Positions 318-63,686 of a stretch of 64,000 bases of DNA are shown piece by piece. Location of the stretch: assembly GCA_947425245.1 (NCBI GenBank), contig CANDYU010000004.1:1-64000 (forward strand), in the 5' to 3' direction. Position numbers and translations under genes: made by a program. The notes under the pieces are model-generated. The model searched no databases. It was not told where the DNA came from and saw only the letters and a program-made list of their open reading frames with translations. The DNA comes from an uncultured Candidatus Saccharibacteria bacterium. Lineage in GTDB: Bacteria; Patescibacteriota; Saccharimonadia; Saccharimonadales; Saccharimonadaceae. The first letter of the stretch is position 1. Every line of letters begins with the position of its first letter.

Positions 318-538
318 CTAACCTAGTACGCCAGACAACGGACGGGGAAACCGTAATAACGATTGCCCGGAGCATTAGCAGGTGAGACTCCACCATGATG
401 AAGATTAAAACTATAGCCAGTTAGGCCAGGTGCACCACTCCAGTAAGCATTTGACGAGGTTGCAGACCAGTTGTAGCCATTGACGCCTAAGTGTGCTGCT
501 GACTCCAAACTGTGATCAACTTCCCCGCTACGGACGAA
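318..538 (-). repeat. Variable cassette C1 (FISUMP-like C-terminal module)
   Basis: Read on the minus strand from the invariant TTCGTCCGTAGCGGG to the invariant CTGGCGTACTAGGTTAGA. It encodes FVRSG-EVDHSLESAAHLGVNGY... and ends NRYYGFPVRCLAY-stop. There is no start codon or gene body upstream, so it is a stand-alone C-terminal module. Its first 20 codons are almost identical to those of C19 (55141-55362), including silent positions, while the rest differs. That indicates mosaic exchange between cassettes. Confidence 0.85.
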
Positions 539-10954: not shown

Positions 10955-11180
10955 CTTATCTAACCTAGTACGCCAGACAACGGACGGGGAAACCATACCA
11001 ACGATCATGCTGGCCGCCCGACGAGTAGACGCCACTAGCATCGAAAGTGAGGTAGTAACCTGCTAAACCAGTCGACCCATTGTTGTAAACGGGTGAAGCC
11101 GTAGCAGGCCAATCGTAGCCATTGCTGCCAAGATACCGGGCAGAGCTGTTGTTGCGATTGATATACCCGCTACGGACGAA
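10955..11180 (-). repeat. Variable cassette C2
   Basis: Encodes FVRSGYINRNNSSARYLG...ending DRWYGFPVRCLAY-stop. It belongs to the seven-member core subfamily (C2, C4, C6, C10, C13, C16, C17) whose variable codons differ in bases 1 and 2 but keep C or T at base 3. No gene body upstream; it sits directly between hairpin B and the truncated Mur ligase. Confidence 0.88.
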
Positions 11181-14144: not shown

Positions 14145-14367
14145 CTTATCTAACCTAGTACGCCAGACAACGGATGGGGAGAGCGAGCCAGCGGTTGGTG
14201 GGGCCATCGGACGGATTAACTCCACCGGGATAGAAATTAAGAAGATAACCCAATAAATTGGTTGACGTAGTATAGTCTGGAGAGGTTGTAGCAGTCCAGT
14301 TGTAGCCAGCGTAACCTAAGTAACGTATTAAGCCGGTACGAATATTGGTATACCCGCTACGGACGAA
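14145..14367 (-). repeat. Variable cassette C3
   Basis: Encodes FVRSGYTNIRTGLIRYLGY...ending NRWLALPIRCLAY-stop. A short palindromic spacer (ATATCCCAGGGTTCTGGTGGGATAT) separates it from the stop codon of the 12269 gene. Confidence 0.87.
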
Positions 14368-20305: not shown

Positions 20306-20341
20306 TATCAGGATACCTCCCAGAGTTTTAGCATTATACAT

Positions 20342-20487
20342 AATATATCTCTTTCACCTGCGAGGGTGGTTGGGTTTTCTAGTCTGGTGACGCTCTCTTC
20401 GTCTGAAGACTCAGACCCGCGTCAGCCTAGAATAATCAAGACTAGAAAACCCAACCACACCTTCGACGCGGTGAAAGAGATATATTA
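20342..20487. repeat. Long hairpin repeat, family B (copy 1)
   Basis: AATATATCTCTTTCACC at one end pairs with GGTGAAAGAGATATATT at the other. Within lie GGTTGGGTTTTCTAGTC and its complement plus GACGCTCTCTTCGTC. Nearly the same as 54609-54753. Located between the valS stop and cassette C4. Confidence 0.88.
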
Positions 20488-20555
20488 TCTATATTCCTAA
20501 ATATGTGGGGATATACTTACACTACGATAAGTTGTGGGATATCCTAATACCTAAA

Positions 20556-20780
20556 CTTATCTAACCTAGTACGCCAGACAACGGATGGGGAAACCGTCCC
20601 AACGATGGTCCGGACCGGTCGACGGGCCGACGCCACTAGCATTGAAAGAGAGGTCGTAACCTGCTAAGCCAGCAGACCCAGCGGCGTAAACGGGCGAAGC
20701 CGTCGTAGACCAATCGTAGCCATGGAGGCCAAGATACCGGGCAGAGCCGCTGTAGCGATAGACGTACCCGCTACGGACGA
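20556..20780 (-). repeat. Variable cassette C4
   Basis: Encodes LVRSGYVYRYSGSARYLG...ending DHRWDGFPIRCLAY-stop; the first conserved residue is L instead of F. Core subfamily with the NNC/NNT pattern. It is the 3'-most member of a run of six cassettes on the minus strand (20556-22356). Confidence 0.88.
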
Positions 20781-20810
20781 GATAGATTTCAGGCTGAATT
20801 GGCAAGATAG

Positions 20811-21083
20811 TTATAAGTTGGGGGTTGGTTGAACTTTAAAAATGCCGTTGGCGAAGATTTCGGGAGCGGTGATTCCCTGGTCGAGAAGGTGTTGGATGAT
20901 GGCACCGGCGATAGCTGAGAGAAGAATCTTGGCGGTTTCGGAGAGATGGTTAAGTTTGGCGATTTCGGTGGCTTCCATTTTTCCGAGGCTGTAAGTTGTA
21001 TTGATGAGTTCGTCGAAGTGTTCGCTGGCAGCCCAAGTGATCTGGCCGGTGATGTTGCATACTTGGTAAGTGATTGTCGTCAT
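20811..21083 (-). CDS. Small hypothetical protein inside the cassette cluster
   Basis: 90 residues, starting 8 nt after a minus-strand TATAAT (leaderless). Mixed composition with an amphipathic helix (ETAKILLSAIAGAIIQHLLDQ). No cysteine pair apart from one C, no signal peptide. It is the only gene between cassettes C4 and C5. Unknown; a role in cassette biology is conceivable only by position. Confidence 0.6.
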   Translation of the reverse strand: MTTITYQVCNITGQITWAASEHFDELINTTYSLGKMEATEIAKLNHLSETAKILLSAIAGAIIQHLLDQGITAPEIFANGIFKVQPTPNL

Positions 21084-21117
21084 AAGAGGATTATATCATT
21101 TTTCGGGGATTTTTTAT

Positions 21118-21339
21118 TCTAACCTAGTACGCCAGACAACGGATGGGGAGAGCGTACCAACGGTCGCTGGGTCCGTTGGATGGAAAGTTGTTATGGTGGT
21201 TGTAGCTAAAATAAAGAGCTGTTGAGCCTGACGAAGCATTCTCGTAAACAGAGGCTGATGTTTTCGCCCAACTGTAGCCATTGACTCCAAGGAAGCGGTT
21301 TGAGCCGGTAACGAGATTGATATATCCGCTACGGACGAA
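21118..21339 (-). repeat. Variable cassette C5
   Basis: Encodes FVRSGYINLVTGSNRFLG...ending DRWYALPIRCLAY-stop. The bases before it read in frame as NKESP-FVRSG, similar to NRESS before C7 and C9, so some coding text 5' of the module is also shared. Confidence 0.86.
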
Positions 21340-21385
21340 GGGTGATTCTTTGTTGAGGTTGGCTATGAACTAGACTGAACCACGC

Positions 21386-21607
21386 TCTAACCTAGTACGC
21401 CAGACAACGGATGGGGAAACCGAGCCAACGATCGTACGGGCCGTGCGACGGGAGGACGCCACTAGTATGAAAATCGAGGAAGTAACCTGACAAATCAGCT
21501 GACCCATCGTTGTAAACGGGCGAAGCCGTAGTCGACCAACCGTAGCCAGCGAGGCTAAGATCCCGGGCAGAGCCGTTGTTGCGAGAGGCGTGCCCGCTAC
21601 GGACGAA
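21386..21607 (-). repeat. Variable cassette C6
   Basis: Encodes FVRSGHASRNNGSARDLS...ending YDRWLGFPIRCLAY-stop. Core subfamily; compared with C2 or C10 nearly all differences are in codon positions 1 and 2 of NNC/NNT codons. Confidence 0.88.
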
Positions 21608-21643
21608 GTGATAGTTTTGGAGAGGACTGGACTTTTTGCTCTT

Positions 21644-21849
21644 ATGTTAACCTAGTACGCCAGACAACGGATGGGGAAACCATGATGATAGGGGTTTGGA
21701 CCAAGCGATGGATAAACTGAAGACCCTGCAAACCTAAGATAAAAAGCAGTCTCACGATCAATAACACTGGTGATGGTCCAGAAATTGCCATTTAAGCCTA
21801 GGTCTCGTTGCGATCCATTGGTTATCTGGGTCCAGCCGCTACGGACGAA
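21644..21849 (-). repeat. Variable cassette C7 (short)
   Basis: Encodes FVRSGWTQITNGSQRDLG...ending NPYHHGFPIRCLAY-stop. About 15 bp shorter than most, with the middle VY...GS loop missing. Preceded in frame by NRESS. Confidence 0.84.
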
Positions 21850-21886
21850 GGATGATTCCCTGTTGAATAGCTATGAGGTTTGAAAC

Positions 21887-22112
21887 CTTATCTAACCTAG
21901 TACGCCAGACAGCGGATGGGGAAACCGAGCCAACGAGCGTACGGGCCGTCCGCTGGACTGACATTGCTAGCACCGAAATAGAGGTTGTAATCTGTTAAGC
22001 CTGCCGATCCAGAATTGAAAACAGGGGAAGCTGTAGACGACCAATAATAACCATCGATACCAAGATATCGGGTGGAGCCATTATCTAAATTGATGTTTCC
22101 GCTACGGACGAA
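21887..22112 (-). repeat. Variable cassette C8
   Basis: Encodes FVRSGNINLDNGSTRYLG...ending YARWLGFPIRCLAY-stop. Some third-base differences from the core subfamily show that it is an older or separately templated copy. Confidence 0.86.
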
Positions 22113-22130
22113 TCGTAATTCCCCGTTAAA

Positions 22131-22356
22131 CTTATCTAACCTAGTACGCCAGACAACGGATGGGGAAACCGTTCCAACGAGGGCCAGGACCACCAGCTGT
22201 ATTAGTAGTATCAGCGTCAAAACCAAGGCGATAACCTGTATAACTAATTGTGTCATGATCAACCTGATAAGGGGCGGTAATAGCCCAATTGTAGCCACTG
22301 AGACCAAGATTGCGAAGTGTACCATAATCACGATCGGTATTCCCACTACGGACGAA
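22131..22356 (-). repeat. Variable cassette C9
   Basis: Encodes FVRSGNTDRDYGTLRNLG...ending GPRWNGFPIRCLAY-stop, with CACTACGG in place of CGCTACGG at the border. An open frame extends about 45 codons further upstream (to about 22497) without signal peptide or FISUMP motifs; this could be a stub of a former gene body. First (5'-most) of the six-cassette run. Confidence 0.84.
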
Positions 22357-26629: not shown

Positions 26630-26855
26630 CTTATCTAACCTAGTACGCCAGACAACGGATGGGGAAACCGTACCAACGATTGTTCGGGCCGTTCGACGGG
26701 CTGACGCCACTAGCATCGAAACCGAGGCTGTAACCTGCCAAACTAGCAGACCCAGCGTCGTAAACGGGCGAAGCCGTAGTGGACCAATGGTAGCCAGCGA
26801 TACCAAGACGCCGGGCAGAGCCGTAGTAGAGACCGACGTACCCGCTACGGACGAA
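26630..26855 (-). repeat. Variable cassette C10
   Basis: Encodes FVRSGYVGLYYGSARRLG...ending NNRWYGFPIRCLAY-stop. Core subfamily: against C16 its first 12 codons are identical apart from codon 9 (CTC/CGC), while later NNY codons differ (CGT/GCT, GCT/GTT, CAT/AAT). Head-to-head with C11 across a leader. Confidence 0.9.
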
Positions 26856-26967
26856 GCTAAAACCGAAATCGAATATCGTATTTCAGGGCACTTTTCAGTT
26901 AATTAACCCAAAACCCGACCAAAATAACAGAGTTAATTTCAATTTGAACCCGTATAGCCTATACTAC
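26856..26967. repeat. Leader between divergent cassettes C10 and C11
   Basis: Contains TTAATTAA, CCAAAATAACAGAG and AACCCGTATAGCCTATAC (palindrome with one arm replaced by the C11 border). Stops in all frames show that it is not coding. Confidence 0.8.
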
Positions 26968-27192
26968 TTCGTCCGTAGCGGGTATATCAATCGTAGTAAC
27001 GGCTCCGTGCAAGGAGCAGGCTTTTATAATCTATTATGGTCGTCAACCTCATCACCATATTTCCGCGATGGTACATCAGGACTAACAGCATTTAGCCTAT
27101 CAACTGTCACATCTACCGTTAATACCGCCAACGGACCATACTCACGTTGGGACGCTTACCCCATCCGTTGTCTGGCGTACTAGGTTAGATAA
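26968..27192 (+). repeat. Variable cassette C11 (plus strand)
   Basis: Encodes FVRSGYINRSNGSVQGAG...ending SRWDAYPIRCLAY-stop. More divergent than the core subfamily in the middle. Followed by two decayed copies of the 3' border. Confidence 0.87.
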
Positions 27193-28579: not shown

Positions 28580-28792
28580 TCTAACCTAGTACGCCAGACA
28601 ACGGATGGAGAAACCGTACATGCGTCGACTCTGGTCATTTAGAGTTGTGCTGACGGCATCAAATAGTAGGTCGCTACCTGAAGCTAAGCCGGAATCGGTA
28701 AAAATGCTAGAAGATGCAGACCAGATATATCCATTAGTACCGTAATTACGAAGTGAACCATTACTGAGATAAATATTGCCGCTACGGACGAA
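28580..28792 (-). repeat. Variable cassette C12
   Basis: Encodes FVRSGNIYLSNGSLRNYG...ending SRRMYGFSIRCLAY-stop. One of the most divergent cores (no RW before the end), but both borders are intact. Head-to-head with C13. Confidence 0.83.
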
Positions 28793-28875
28793 CTAGTACA
28801 ACCTATACGGATTCAACTTGAAATCACCTCTGTTACTTTGGTCAGGTTTTTAATTAATTAAACAATATTGACCGC
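28793..28875. repeat. Leader between divergent cassettes C12 and C13
   Basis: GTACAACCTATACGGATTC is a decayed palindrome. CACCTCTGTTACTTTGG and TTAATTAA follow in the standard order. Confidence 0.78.
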
Positions 28876-29098
28876 TTCGTCCGTAGCGGGAACATCAATT
28901 GCGACTACGGCTCTACTCGGTATATTGGCTTTGCTGGCTACAATTGGTCAGCTGCCTCCTCCTCAGTTTACGGCTCTGGATCAACCGGTTTGACAGGTTA
29001 CTACCTCGATTTCAATGCTAATGACGTCTACCCGTCAAACGGCCCGGTCAATCGTTGGGTCGGTTTCCCTATCCGTTGTCTGGCGTACTAGGTTAGAT
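28876..29098 (+). repeat. Variable cassette C13 (plus strand)
   Basis: Encodes FVRSGNINCDYGSTRYIG...ending NRWVGFPIRCLAY-stop. Although on the opposite strand it belongs to the core subfamily: the same codon columns are NNC or NNT, so the two orientations share one ancestor or template. Confidence 0.89.
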
Positions 29099-35775: not shown

Positions 35776-36002
35776 CTTATCTAACCTAGTACGCCAGACA
35801 ACGGATGGGGAAGCCGAGATAACGATTAGTGGGGCCATCGGATGGACCAACACTGTTTGTGAAGAAATGGAAAAGGTAGCTTGATGGAGCGGTGACTCCA
35901 GTACCATAAGTTGGAGAAGCAGTACTTGCCCAGTTGTAACCGTCTCTGCCAAGATAGCGTATAGAATTATTAGCAAGATAGAGATACCCGCTACGGACGG
36001 GT
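35776..36002 (-). repeat. Variable cassette C14
   Basis: Encodes PVRSGYLYLANNSIRYLG...ending TNRYLGFPIRCLAY-stop; its 5' border is CCGTCCGTAGCGGG instead of TTCGTCC. Followed upstream by a leader with palindrome half GTATAGTCTATAC at about 36061. Confidence 0.84.
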
Positions 36003-36110: not shown

Positions 36111-36335
36111 TCTAACCTAGTACACCAGACAACGGATGGGGAAGCCGTTCCAACGATAGTTTGTGCCGTCCGATGGATCTACGCTAGAAGCATCAAGGTT
36201 GAGATATAAACTCGCTAGGCCAGTCGCCCCAGCACTAGTAGTATTTGGGGTTGCAGTGGCGGACCAACCATAACCATTGAATCCGAGTCGGCGTGCTGAA
36301 CTGCGGTCCTCACTGATAGCACCGCTACGGACGAA
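36111..36335 (-). repeat. Variable cassette C15
   Basis: Encodes FVRSGAISEDRSSARRLG...ending NYRWNGFPIRCLVY-stop; one substitution each in the DNA border (TACACC for TACGCC) and the protein end (LVY). Confidence 0.85.
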
Positions 36336-36344
36336 GTTTTTACG

Positions 36345-36570
36345 CTTATCTAGCCTAGTACGCCAGACAACGGATGGGGAAACCGTACCAACGACCGTCT
36401 GGACCGTTCGACGGATTGACGCCACTAGCATAGAAATCGAGGAAGTAACACGTCAAACCAGCAGACCCATTGCCGTAGACGGGCGAAGCCGTAGCTGACC
36501 AATTGTGGCCAACGATGCCAAGAGCCCGGGCAGAGCCGTAGTAGCGACCGACGTACCCGCTACGGACGAA
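36345..36570 (-). repeat. Variable cassette C16
   Basis: Encodes FVRSGYVGRYYGSARALG...ending DGRWYGFPIRCLAY-stop. Core subfamily, closest to C10; in tandem with C15 only 9 bp apart. Confidence 0.89.
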
Positions 36571-41734: not shown

Positions 41735-42202
41735 TTGAAGAATGCACAGATTAATAGCTCGTTGAATACGGTGAAAGAAAATACAGCACCACAGCTTGAT
41801 AACACTACAACTGTGATTCAGAATTACGATGTTACTTTGAAGAATGATGGGGATTCGATTACCTATACATTCGATGTAAAGAATAATGGAGATATTGATG
41901 CGAAGATTACGGCGATTGTGATGAATACAGGTGCGAACTTAACTTGTAATTCGACGAGCGGTTCAGCAGCTGATCAAGCAACCCGGAATACGAAGACTTG
42001 TGCGAACTTGAACTACACATTGACTTATGTGGATGGCACGGCGGTGCAAGTGAATGATAAATTGGCGGCTGGGGCTTCGAAGACGATGAAACTAAAATTG
42101 GAGTATAAGTTGCAGCCAAATCAAACTGATTCGGATCTTCCGGACGATGATGTGGCGGTGAGCGATTTAGGGGTTACGATTACTTATGGTCAGGACAGCT
42201 AG
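41735..42202 (+). pseudogene. 5'-truncated surface beta-sandwich protein
   Basis: 155 codons open from a poor TTG without ribosome site. The text QNYDVTLKNDGDSITYTFDVKNNGDIDAKI, later LTYVDGTAVQVNDKLAAG and SDLGVTITY, matches a secreted beta-sandwich family that normally starts with a membrane anchor or pilin-type signal. That N-terminus is missing. The short repeat TTAGGATATCC, common at cassette sites, lies right at the 5' breakpoint (about 41713), suggesting deletion at a repeat. Ends TAG-GATATAG, again a repeat fragment. Confidence 0.65.
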
Positions 42203-42237
42203 GATATAGTCGGTCTGGCAAAAATGAAGCTGAGCAC

Positions 42238-43413
42238 ACGCAAAATTGTTGGGATTGAGACGGGGGTGGGACGAGGTTTGATGTGAACTCGGATCTGAGT
42301 AGGTGGGACAGTACGAACTATTCGAATCCGGCGAACTATTATTATCGAGGTGATAATGATTTAGGTAGGGATTCGTTGGGGAGTCTGTATAGCTACAAAG
42401 CGGCAAGTAATGTTTGTCCGGTAGGGTGGAGATTGCCGATTGGTGGAAAGGGTGGAGATTATTACAACTTGTTGGGAGATTATACATCGGGAACGACGAC
42501 GGCGGTAAATGCGACGAAGAAGTATTTACAGAGTCCGTATTTCTTCGTATATGGCGGATGGGTAGATGGCGAAGACGGTATGGTATATAGCGGTACAAGG
42601 GCGAACTATCGGTCGGCACGGATGACGGGCGATTCGACAGTGTATACATTGGACTTGTCGGTGGGTGATAAAGTGATGAAGTCGATTGCGACGGATGATT
42701 TTCACTGGGGAGAGTCGGTGAGGTGCGTATATGGTGAGCCGGCGACTGAGCCAGAGGATATATATACAGTGGATACGATGCAGGAGCTAACGCCGACATT
42801 GTGTGCGAATACGACATTGGCGGATAGGCAGACTCTTCGGCTGTTGACGGATTCGAGGGACGGGCATAGGTATTGGGTGTCGAAGTTATCGAAAGATGGG
42901 AATTGTTGGATGGTGCAGAACTTGGACTATGACGGTGGTGGGACAAGGTTTGATAAGAACAGTGACTTCTCGAAATGGGATACGGTTGGTTTTCCGGAAC
43001 AGTATTATTATCGTGGGGACTGGGAGGATGGCTTGAGTTCATATGGGACTTTGTATACTTGGCAGTCGGCACAGAATGTTTGTCCGGTAACTTGGCGGTT
43101 GCCGACTGGTGGACCAAGCAGTGAGGAAACGGCTTTGTGGAGTGGGATAGCGAATAGTTTGGCCGGGGTGAATAAACTAGTAGCGGCACCGTTCTATTTC
43201 GTAAAAAGTGGATTCTTTGAGGCGGGGGATGGTCCAGTGTCAGAGGAGGTTGAGGAGTATTGGTGGTCGAGTACGCCGGGGCCACTAGGCGGATATGCGA
43301 TGGCGATTAATACGAAAGGTCGGCAGTATATACGGTCGAGTAGCGATGAGGGCAACACGGGAGGAGGAAGCTATTGGGGCGAGTCGGTGCGATGTATGAT
43401 GTCGGGAAATTGA
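42238..43413 (+). pseudogene. 5'-truncated FISUMP-domain surface protein (two repeats)
   Basis: In one frame a TGA lies just before DGGGTRFDVNSDLSRWD, which aligns to the second repeat text DGGGTRFDKNSDFSKWD. So the upstream part of this protein is lost and the open frame (GTG 42283) is a remnant of about 376 codons. Each repeat has YYYRGD, NVCPVxWRLP and ends WGESVRC, typical of Fibrobacter-succinogenes-major paralog (FISUMP) domains. The ends APFYFVKSGFF and ESVRCM correspond to the FVRSG and PIRC borders of the cassettes, which identifies what the cassettes encode. Confidence 0.7.
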
Positions 43414-45619: not shown

Positions 45620-45845
45620 CTTATCTAACCTAGTACGCCAGACAACGGATGGGGAAACCGGCCCAACGATTGCTCGGGCCGTCCGACGGGTTGACGCCAC
45701 TAGCATAAAAATCGAGGAGGTAACCAGTTAATCCAGCTAATCCATCACTATAAACTGAGGAAGAAGTAGCTGACCAACCGTAGCCGTCTCTGCCAAGATA
45801 CCGGGCAAAGCCGACGCTGCGATTGATGAGCCCGCTACGGACGAA
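45620..45845 (-). repeat. Variable cassette C17
   Basis: Encodes FVRSGLINRSVGFARYLG...ending SNRWAGFPIRCLAY-stop. Core subfamily in its second half. Confidence 0.88.
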
Positions 45846-54773: not shown

Positions 54774-54995
54774 TCTAACCTAGTACGCCAGACAACGGAT
54801 GGGAAAAGCGTACCAACGAGTAACTGGGCTATTGTCGGGAATAATATCGTTAAAAGTAAGGAAAAAGCGAAAACCAGACGGAGCATTTGCTCCATCATCG
54901 GTAACTGAAGATGCTGTTTTTGACCAAAGGAAGCCGCGTTCGCCAACAAAACGCATAGAGTTAAGGCCAAACCATATATACCCGCTACGGACGAA
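54774..54995 (-). repeat. Variable cassette C18
   Basis: Encodes FVRSGYIWFGLNSMRFVG...ending VTRWYAFPIRCLAY-stop. Divergent core, intact borders. Confidence 0.85.
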
Positions 54996-55140: not shown

Positions 55141-55362
55141 TCTAACCTAGTACGCCAGACAACGGATGGGGAAACCATTCCAGCGATTGTATGGACCGGC
55201 CGACGGGCCAATACCGCTATCATAAAGAGCAAAGCTATAGCTTGCTAAACCGGTTGATCCAGAGCTATAAACTGGTGAAGTAACAGTGGCCCAATAATAG
55301 CCATTGACGCCTAAGTGTGCTGCTGACCCCAAACTGTGATCAATGTCCCCGCTACGGACGAA
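55141..55362 (-). repeat. Variable cassette C19
   Basis: Encodes FVRSGDIDHSLGSAAHLG...ending YNRWNGFPIRCLAY-stop. The 5' third shares silent codons with C1, the remaining part resembles other cassettes: a mosaic. Confidence 0.86.
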
Positions 55363-63139: not shown

Positions 63140-63353
63140 CTTATCTAACCTAGTACGCCAGACAACGGATGGGGCGACCATCTGATCGTAGGTTTAAGCC
63201 GGCTGATGGATCGAGAGTGGAATGGTAAAAAGCTAAATAATTGCTTCTGAGGGAGCTAGTGTTAATAAGGGTAGTAGCTGACCAGTTGTAGCCGTAATCG
63301 CCGAGGTCTCTCGCAAAATCTCCGGTCGAGAAGATAAGACCGCTACGGACGAA
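63140..63353 (-). repeat. Variable cassette C20
   Basis: Begins VRSG-LIFSTGDFARDLGDYGYNWSATT and ends PIRCLAY-stop; short middle loop. Preceded on its 3' side by the TAGTAT and GGTGAAATGATAATATATAG remnants of hairpin family B. Confidence 0.83.
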
Positions 63354-63467
63354 GTAGTGGACTTGGATCTTATAGATCCAGTTTAGTGAGATTTTGGCTT
63401 AATTAACGAGAAAAATGTCGAGATTAACAGGGATAAAATCGATTTGAACCCGTATAGGCTATACGGG
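63354..63467. repeat. Leader between divergent cassettes C20 and C21
   Basis: TTAATTAA, GAGATTAACAGGGATAAAATC, then a complete palindrome AACCCGTATAGGCTATACGGGTT that fuses directly with the C21 border TTCGTCCG. Confidence 0.82.
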
Positions 63468-63686
63468 TTCGTCCGTAGCGGCAATATTCGTTTAGATAGC
63501 GGCTCGGTTCATTATCTTGGACTTATTAGTTATGGTTGGTCAAGTACGGCAGCACCAGTCTATATAGATCGACCAGGAGTTTTAGCGGCTTATCGGATCG
63601 ATGCAGCCATTGATAGAGTTAATCTCTCGTATGGTCCGGATTATCGTTGGCGTACTCTCCCCATCCGTTGTCTGGCGTACCAGGTT
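63468..63686 (+). repeat. Variable cassette C21 (plus strand, stop codon lost)
   Basis: Encodes FVRSGNIRLDSGSVHYLG...ending YRWRTLPIRCLAY, but the usual TAG is CAG, so the frame reads on for six codons. The 3' border continues straight into the promoter of the recombinase gene. Confidence 0.84.

Follow-up and report, generated by a model that had tools for sequence, protein, structure and literature searches.

Why would a bacterium keep six start-less copies of one gene end in a row between its genes, and what produces them? Saccharibacteria are ultra-small epibionts of other bacteria, to which they are attached, and their genomes measure about 1 Mb at most. The row lies in one such genome (G000; 882 kb, 22 contigs), within the window, the 64,000-nucleotide stretch of contig C4 that we analyzed. 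The original prediction saw in it a tandem store of alternative 3' ends, moved into an expressed surface gene by gene conversion or cassette exchange. We followed this up in all contigs of the genome except 2 kb of C8, and in related genomes.

The tandem run is part of a genome-wide cassette set

The predicted run of about 1.8 kb was confirmed: at 20565–22354 the minus strand holds six cassettes of about 215 bp, arranged head-to-tail (Table 1). The short gaps had been given as 18–50 bp and are slightly wider (29, 48, 45 and 53 bp), and the long gap, predicted at about 340 bp, measures 343 bp and indeed contains a 90-aa ORF, which has no match in Pfam or NCBIfam. The text NRESS stands ahead of two cassettes (ending at 22354 and 21847) and NKESP ahead of one (21337). 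This repetition had been noticed as in-frame text, but most of the frames have no start codon of their own and stops lie close upstream, so the best reading is a shared, non-coding DNA motif upstream of the cassettes.

The genome holds 76 intact cassettes, 21 of them in the window and six in the run, and by the limits used 62 of the 76 are exactly 215 bp long. A tblastn search gave 86 matches in the genome, including five copies split by an 83-bp insert. Each cassette starts at (T)TCGTCCGTAGCGG and ends near GGCGTACTAGGTTAGATAAG, and the sequence differs beyond both edges. In the window, 20 occurrences of the common 3' end GGTTTCCCCATCCGTTGTCTGGCGTACTAG were counted, and 100 shuffles produced none. 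The GTTAGAT of the cassette tail matches the attC core consensus of integron gene cassettes, itself a short consensus, and an integron reading was therefore considered. Pairs of close neighbours are head-to-head in 10 cases and tandem in 18, none is tail-to-tail, and both mosaics and exact copies were found among the cassettes.

Table 1. Features of the window (contig C4) and, where a contig is named, of the rest of genome G000. Differences are counted against the template repeat; A differences are those at template A.
Feature	Position	Strand	Remarks
Cassette 1 of the run	22140–22354	-	Orphan variable repeat, diverged class; 60 non-A and 21 A differences
Cassette 2 of the run	21896–22110	-	33 non-A and 19 A differences
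Cassette 3 of the run	21651–21847	-	197 bp, in-frame shortening
Cassette 4 of the run	21391–21605	-	Template-derived; changed at 23/45 A sites and 7/160 others
Cassette 5 of the run	21123–21337	-	Diverged class
Cassette 6 of the run	20565–20779	-	Template-derived; changed at 23/45 A sites and 6/160 others
90-aa ORF	20811–21083	-	In the 343-bp gap; TATAAT-like box upstream
Long inverted repeat	20330–20512		Arms ending GGTTGGGTTTTCTAGTC; downstream of cassette 6; limits by eye
Orphan cassette	322–536	-	
Orphan cassette	10964–11178	-	Template-derived
Orphan cassette	14154–14365	-	
Orphan cassette	26639–26853	-	Template-derived; head-to-head with 26970–27184
Head-to-head spacer	26854–26969		Holds the ~75-bp upstream element with palindrome AACCCGTATAG/CTATACGGGTT
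Orphan cassette	26970–27184	+	
Orphan cassette	28585–28790	-	Head-to-head with 28878–29092
Orphan cassette	28878–29092	+	
Orphan cassette	35785–35999	-	
Orphan cassette	36116–36333	-	
Orphan cassette	36354–36568	-	Template-derived
Orphan cassette	45629–45843	-	
Orphan cassette	54779–54993	-	
Orphan cassette	55146–55360	-	Identical to one at contig C13 (9580)
Orphan cassette	63149–63351	-	Head-to-head with 63470–63684
Orphan cassette	63470–63684	+	
83-bp insert site	C1:74819		
83-bp insert site	C1:126773		
83-bp insert site	C2:86888	-	
83-bp insert site	C5:65310		
83-bp insert site	C16:15974		
358-aa ORF	C11:23099–24175		Overlaps the start of the reverse transcriptase; candidate accessory protein in place of Avd
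Reverse transcriptase	C11:24172–25353		394 aa
Template repeat	C11:25704–25908		205 bp, non-coding

Several elements accompany the cassettes. In the genome, 11 of the 12 inverted-repeat arms ending GGTTGGGTTTTCTAGTC follow a cassette 3' end by no more than 400 bp; the repeat may itself be mobile, or it may form a stem-loop that helps the retroelement. Many cassettes are flanked directly on their 5' side by an element of about 75 bp with a perfect palindrome, which also occupies the head-to-head spacers, including those at 28791–28877 and 63352–63469. The 83-bp insert, a hairpin, interrupts five further cassettes at the same base (GTTGTC^TGGCGTACTAGG) although their bodies differ, and therefore either insertion was site-specific or the bodies were replaced around the insert. 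These five tail-less copies were considered as extra template repeats and rejected, because they carry the insert instead.

A reverse transcriptase and its template repeat

An RVT_1 profile search found a single reverse transcriptase (RT) in the genome, on contig C11. It carries the motifs IGNLTSQ and YVDD, and its best match among solved structures is 8ub7 (E = 6e-23), which we take to be the DGR enzyme of BPP-1. By its motifs and its best solved relative, the RT is predicted to be of the DGR type. The ORF that overlaps its start has no match in Pfam, NCBIfam or PHROGs.

The template repeat (TR), homologous to the cassettes, lies 341 nt downstream of the RT and carries AAC or AAT in the majority of its variable codons. 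Among the 23 cassettes that resemble TR most, 432 of 1035 template-A sites were changed (41.7%), compared with 5.1% at C, 6.6% at G and 3.0% at T. When 45 random positions were drawn 20,000 times, the maximum was 273 changes versus the 432 observed. This bias holds for the 23 close cassettes and is absent from the diverged class. The conserved 3' part shows one constant base difference, with CCCCGTCCG in TR and CCCCATCCG in 22 of the 23 close cassettes (index 193: G in the template, A in the 22), and beyond GTCTG the sequences of TR and the cassettes are wholly different. From their sequence, these 3' differences appear to be in the manner of IMH* and IMH as described in BPP-1 (PMC12875486).

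We conclude that the RT–template unit is a DGR and that the orphan cassettes belong to it only as repeats, since they lie outside target genes. The original prediction of a store of variation had thus overlooked both the DGR that generates the variation and the genome-wide scale.

Orphan cassettes encode a selected domain

No ORF of at least 200 aa overlaps 75 of the 76 cassettes, and only a gene fragment on contig C6 continues a recognisable gene into its cassette. The orphans are intergenic, mostly without a start codon, and are partial copies of the end of a FISUMP-type gene (related genes match PF09603). Each begins mid-domain (FVRSG) and corresponds to the C-terminal part of the domain. 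An AlphaFold model of the FISUMP domain in the window reached a pLDDT of 42, too poor for assigning a fold such as the C-type lectin fold of DGR variable domains.

All 76 cassettes have a frame-keeping length and contain no stop codon. Among the 27 most diverged (at least 40 non-A differences), none has a stop, whereas about 23 with a stop were expected at random (2000 trials; minimum 15). The rate of non-A change is 0.49 at third codon positions versus 0.29 and 0.21 at the other two. Stop-free frames even in diverged copies, together with the third-position excess, indicate that the encoded domain has been under selection in the past, which requires that it was expressed at some time.

The window also contains a two-domain FISUMP gene at 41735–43413 (plus strand), whose first domain is without its N-terminal part. 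A 155-aa ORF precedes it and the frame closes right before the gene, possibly through a frameshift or gene decay.

Expressed gene ends have exact copies among the orphans

The candidate expression gene, on contig C20 (minus, 1745 to 1), has an open frame of 581 aa, a signal-like N-terminus and similarity to FISUMP. The frame enters a cassette and leaves the contig inside it, so that the end is only partly visible; in the visible part, the differences from the template fall at A, as judged by eye. At the end of C6, a 256-bp pre-cassette stretch is 100% identical to C20 and is followed by a different cassette. This cassette is identical to an orphan at C9:2646, and its class is far from the present template.

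Complete genes of this kind were found in two other genomes. In G024, a relative of the C20 gene forms a 620-aa frame that ends in a cassette on C27, about 30 bp before the contig stops; in G063, a C20-type gene is contig-internal on C2. The variable repeat is therefore inside a protein-coding gene in C20, G024 C27 and G063 C2, as opposed to nearly all of the 76 cassettes. When the gene ends were compared with their own genomes, each had one full and identical copy, of 199 bp in G063 (G063:C4:11265–11463) and of 212 uninterrupted bp in G024 (G024:C19:7622–7842). In both cases, the identity stops at the cassette edges and the flanks are unrelated. Exact twins otherwise make up 5–11% of cassettes (6/76 in G000 and, in the stretches read, 2/37 in G060 and 4/37 in G062), so a twin for every testable gene is unlikely to be due to chance. 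Because copies of about 200 bp show no change at any A, mutagenic retrohoming is disfavoured as the last step, and we infer gene conversion or cassette exchange by non-mutagenic DNA copying.

In G063, pre-cassette copies of the gene (147 and 80 bp, 100%) are joined to other cassettes. Such fragments beside other cassettes indicate that material also leaves the expression gene.

These results bear on the core of the original prediction, exchange between a store of 3' ends and a surface gene, which is well supported by the C20 gene, by the C6 cassette and its orphan on C9, and by the twins in G063 and G024. A FISUMP gene whose end equals a cassette was thus found in exact form in these two genomes, but none of the six cassettes of the tandem run matches an expressed gene end.

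Contigs with the expression gene break in, just after or just before the variable end (G000 C20:1, G024 C27:14961, G060 C20, G062 C13), the pattern expected of an end that is repetitive, or of which the population holds a mixture. A 612-aa frame on G060:C19 was considered as a full-length target and rejected, being a cassette frame that reads through into an unrelated enzyme gene.

Cassettes turn over between relatives

The sister species G060 and G062 share about 80% identity in aligned DNA. We compared eight cassette sites of G060 with their orthologous sites in G062: five hold cassettes of unrelated sequence and three are empty, two of these three being head-to-head pairs in G060. Cassette order and sequence are therefore not invariant; invariance would have counted against the original prediction.

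Expansion to at least 48 cassette candidates was found in 10 of 174 genomes of the genus; the next highest count was 35, and most genomes had fewer than 20. RT homologues were present in 25 of 60 relatives. As the RT is far more widespread than the expansion, the latter appears to be derived, superimposed on a widespread DGR. Four DGRs that we checked in the genus have a single target (one in G034, two in G027, one in G031), each repeat pair lying beside the RT and the target gene, and mismatches between the copies fall at A of one copy in 29/30, 21/21, 22/25 and 19/20 cases. The genome G014, with an RT 68% identical, has more than 10 FISUMP genes, at least some of them complete with variable-looking 3' ends, and few orphan cassettes; it may represent a stage between DGRs with one target and the orphan store.

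In some cassette-like repeats, a template-type tail (...GGTGCCGATCTTTT) replaces the target tail, at four places in G060 (C1:4925, 37753, 41687 and 59117) and is also present at G062 C2:78273, C4:53306 and C4:61614. These two genomes may therefore carry several dispersed template repeats for one RT.

A proposed two-stage system and its alternatives

The cassettes are probably orphan variable repeats of the DGR, which together serve one FISUMP-type surface protein as a silent and dispersed supply of alternative C-terminal ends. As to how the store works, on balance we favour a two-stage system, in which the error-prone RT writes the silent cassette library and recombination loads a single expressed surface gene. 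In the first step, shown by the A-biased differences in the cassettes, random bases are incorporated opposite template A when TR RNA is copied, and the product reaches the cassettes, the RT presumably being able to act on orphans in place. In the second step, seen as a pattern in the cassette set, cassettes are duplicated, form mosaics by recombination, and come and go at intergenic sites, in many cases as head-to-head pairs. In the third step, a whole cassette would be swapped with the single full-length gene by non-mutagenic recombination or gene conversion, probably by homologous recombination at the invariant cassette ends, which would replace the variable domain and so presumably alter ligand binding. 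From the expressed gene, ends can also pass outward into the store. The gene–orphan copies are exact, a direct observation, and from there we infer both the direction of copying and the switching of the gene. Against this system stand the fragments of the expression gene found elsewhere, which point to outward copying, and the six tandem cassettes, which match no expressed end.

That outward copying is the essence of a one-way archive. Here the expressed gene would be the only target of mutation by the DGR, and its former ends would be left in intergenic DNA, whether as a by-product or as a record, and never reused. The perfect pre-cassette copies joined to other cassettes (256 bp in G000; 147 and 80 bp in G063) fit this idea, but we regard it as unlikely: old, diverged orphans are stop-free and changed mostly at third positions, which an archive would explain only if divergence preceded deposition, and the C6 cassette belongs to a class far from the present template.

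An ordinary trans-acting DGR could instead mutate a very large number of targets in place, with no exchange with an expressed gene. Many orphans do show A-biased differences, and near-identical cassette pairs, counted without the five insert-bearing cassettes, have 93 of their 127 differences at template A versus 22% expected by site share. DGRs with remote targets are also known (PMC4891356, PMC10907252), but their remote variable repeats sit in target genes, unlike the orphan cassettes. Moreover, exact twins of expressed ends without any A change are unexpected from mutagenic retrohoming, and we give this explanation a low probability.

It is just as improbable that the cassettes are selfish or dead repeats that spread like miniature mobile elements and have no function. 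Their intergenic and often palindromic head-to-head layout, the repeat elements close by, and their gain or loss between close species are what such repeats would show. However, every one of the 76 is in frame and stop-free, and amino-acid change was selected against. REP-like mobilisation by a Y1 transposase was rejected, as a PF01797 search of the genome found no such enzyme of the IS200/IS605 type. Finally, translation of each cassette in place into a small protein of about 70 aa, which the stop-free open frames would allow, is hardly credible, because there are no consistent starts, no conserved start codon or upstream signal, and each cassette starts in the middle of a FISUMP-type domain, of which it is the C-terminal part.

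Under the favoured two-stage system, the cell seems to hold spare binding tips in a library that renews itself. That about 2% of so small a genome goes to spare ends for a single surface protein suggests that the bacterium is under strong pressure to vary its binding, and the bound partner may be the host cell, a phage or other. If this is true, a DGR can feed a reusable library and not merely overwrite its target. Variable repeats then need not be genic, so surveys restricted to the neighbourhood of the RT or to genes will miss them.

Comparison with known systems

No report of such an arrangement in Saccharibacteria was found in a literature search that mostly did not reach subscription journals. 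To our knowledge, variation written by an RT and loading from silent cassettes are known only separately.

The system resembles DGRs of the BPP-1 type, including those of Treponema denticola and Thiohalocapsa PB-PSB1, in its RT, its adjacent template repeat, variation at template A, a template–target difference in the conserved 3' part, and the variable C-terminus of a target gene. It differs from known DGRs in having about 80 variable repeats in G000, nearly all of them outside genes. The seven DGR target genes of T. denticola (PMC4891356) and the 21 variable repeats over nine DGRs of Thiohalocapsa (PMC10907252) are the largest counts found in the literature searched, and by its own account a large metagenomic survey could not cover remote variable repeats (PMC8144416). 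With the one-target DGRs of its own genus (G034, G027, G031), G000 shares an RT of 46–57% identity, a FISUMP-like target and A-specific differences, but those DGRs have one template and one variable repeat in the adjacent gene, with few or no orphans.

Like repeats of the REP/BIME and MITE types, the cassettes are intergenic, lie head-to-head, have palindromic neighbours, and are gained or lost between close species. Unlike them, they encode a selected protein domain, and the Y1 transposase was not found.

Antigenic variation from silent cassettes is known from pilS/pilE of Neisseria, vls of Borrelia and vlhA of Mycoplasma. G000 shares with these systems the start-less partial copies, a single expression gene whose end equals a silent copy, and conserved ends as homology. 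The systems are not homologous: in G000, the cassettes are dispersed over the genome, and new variants come from an error-prone RT.
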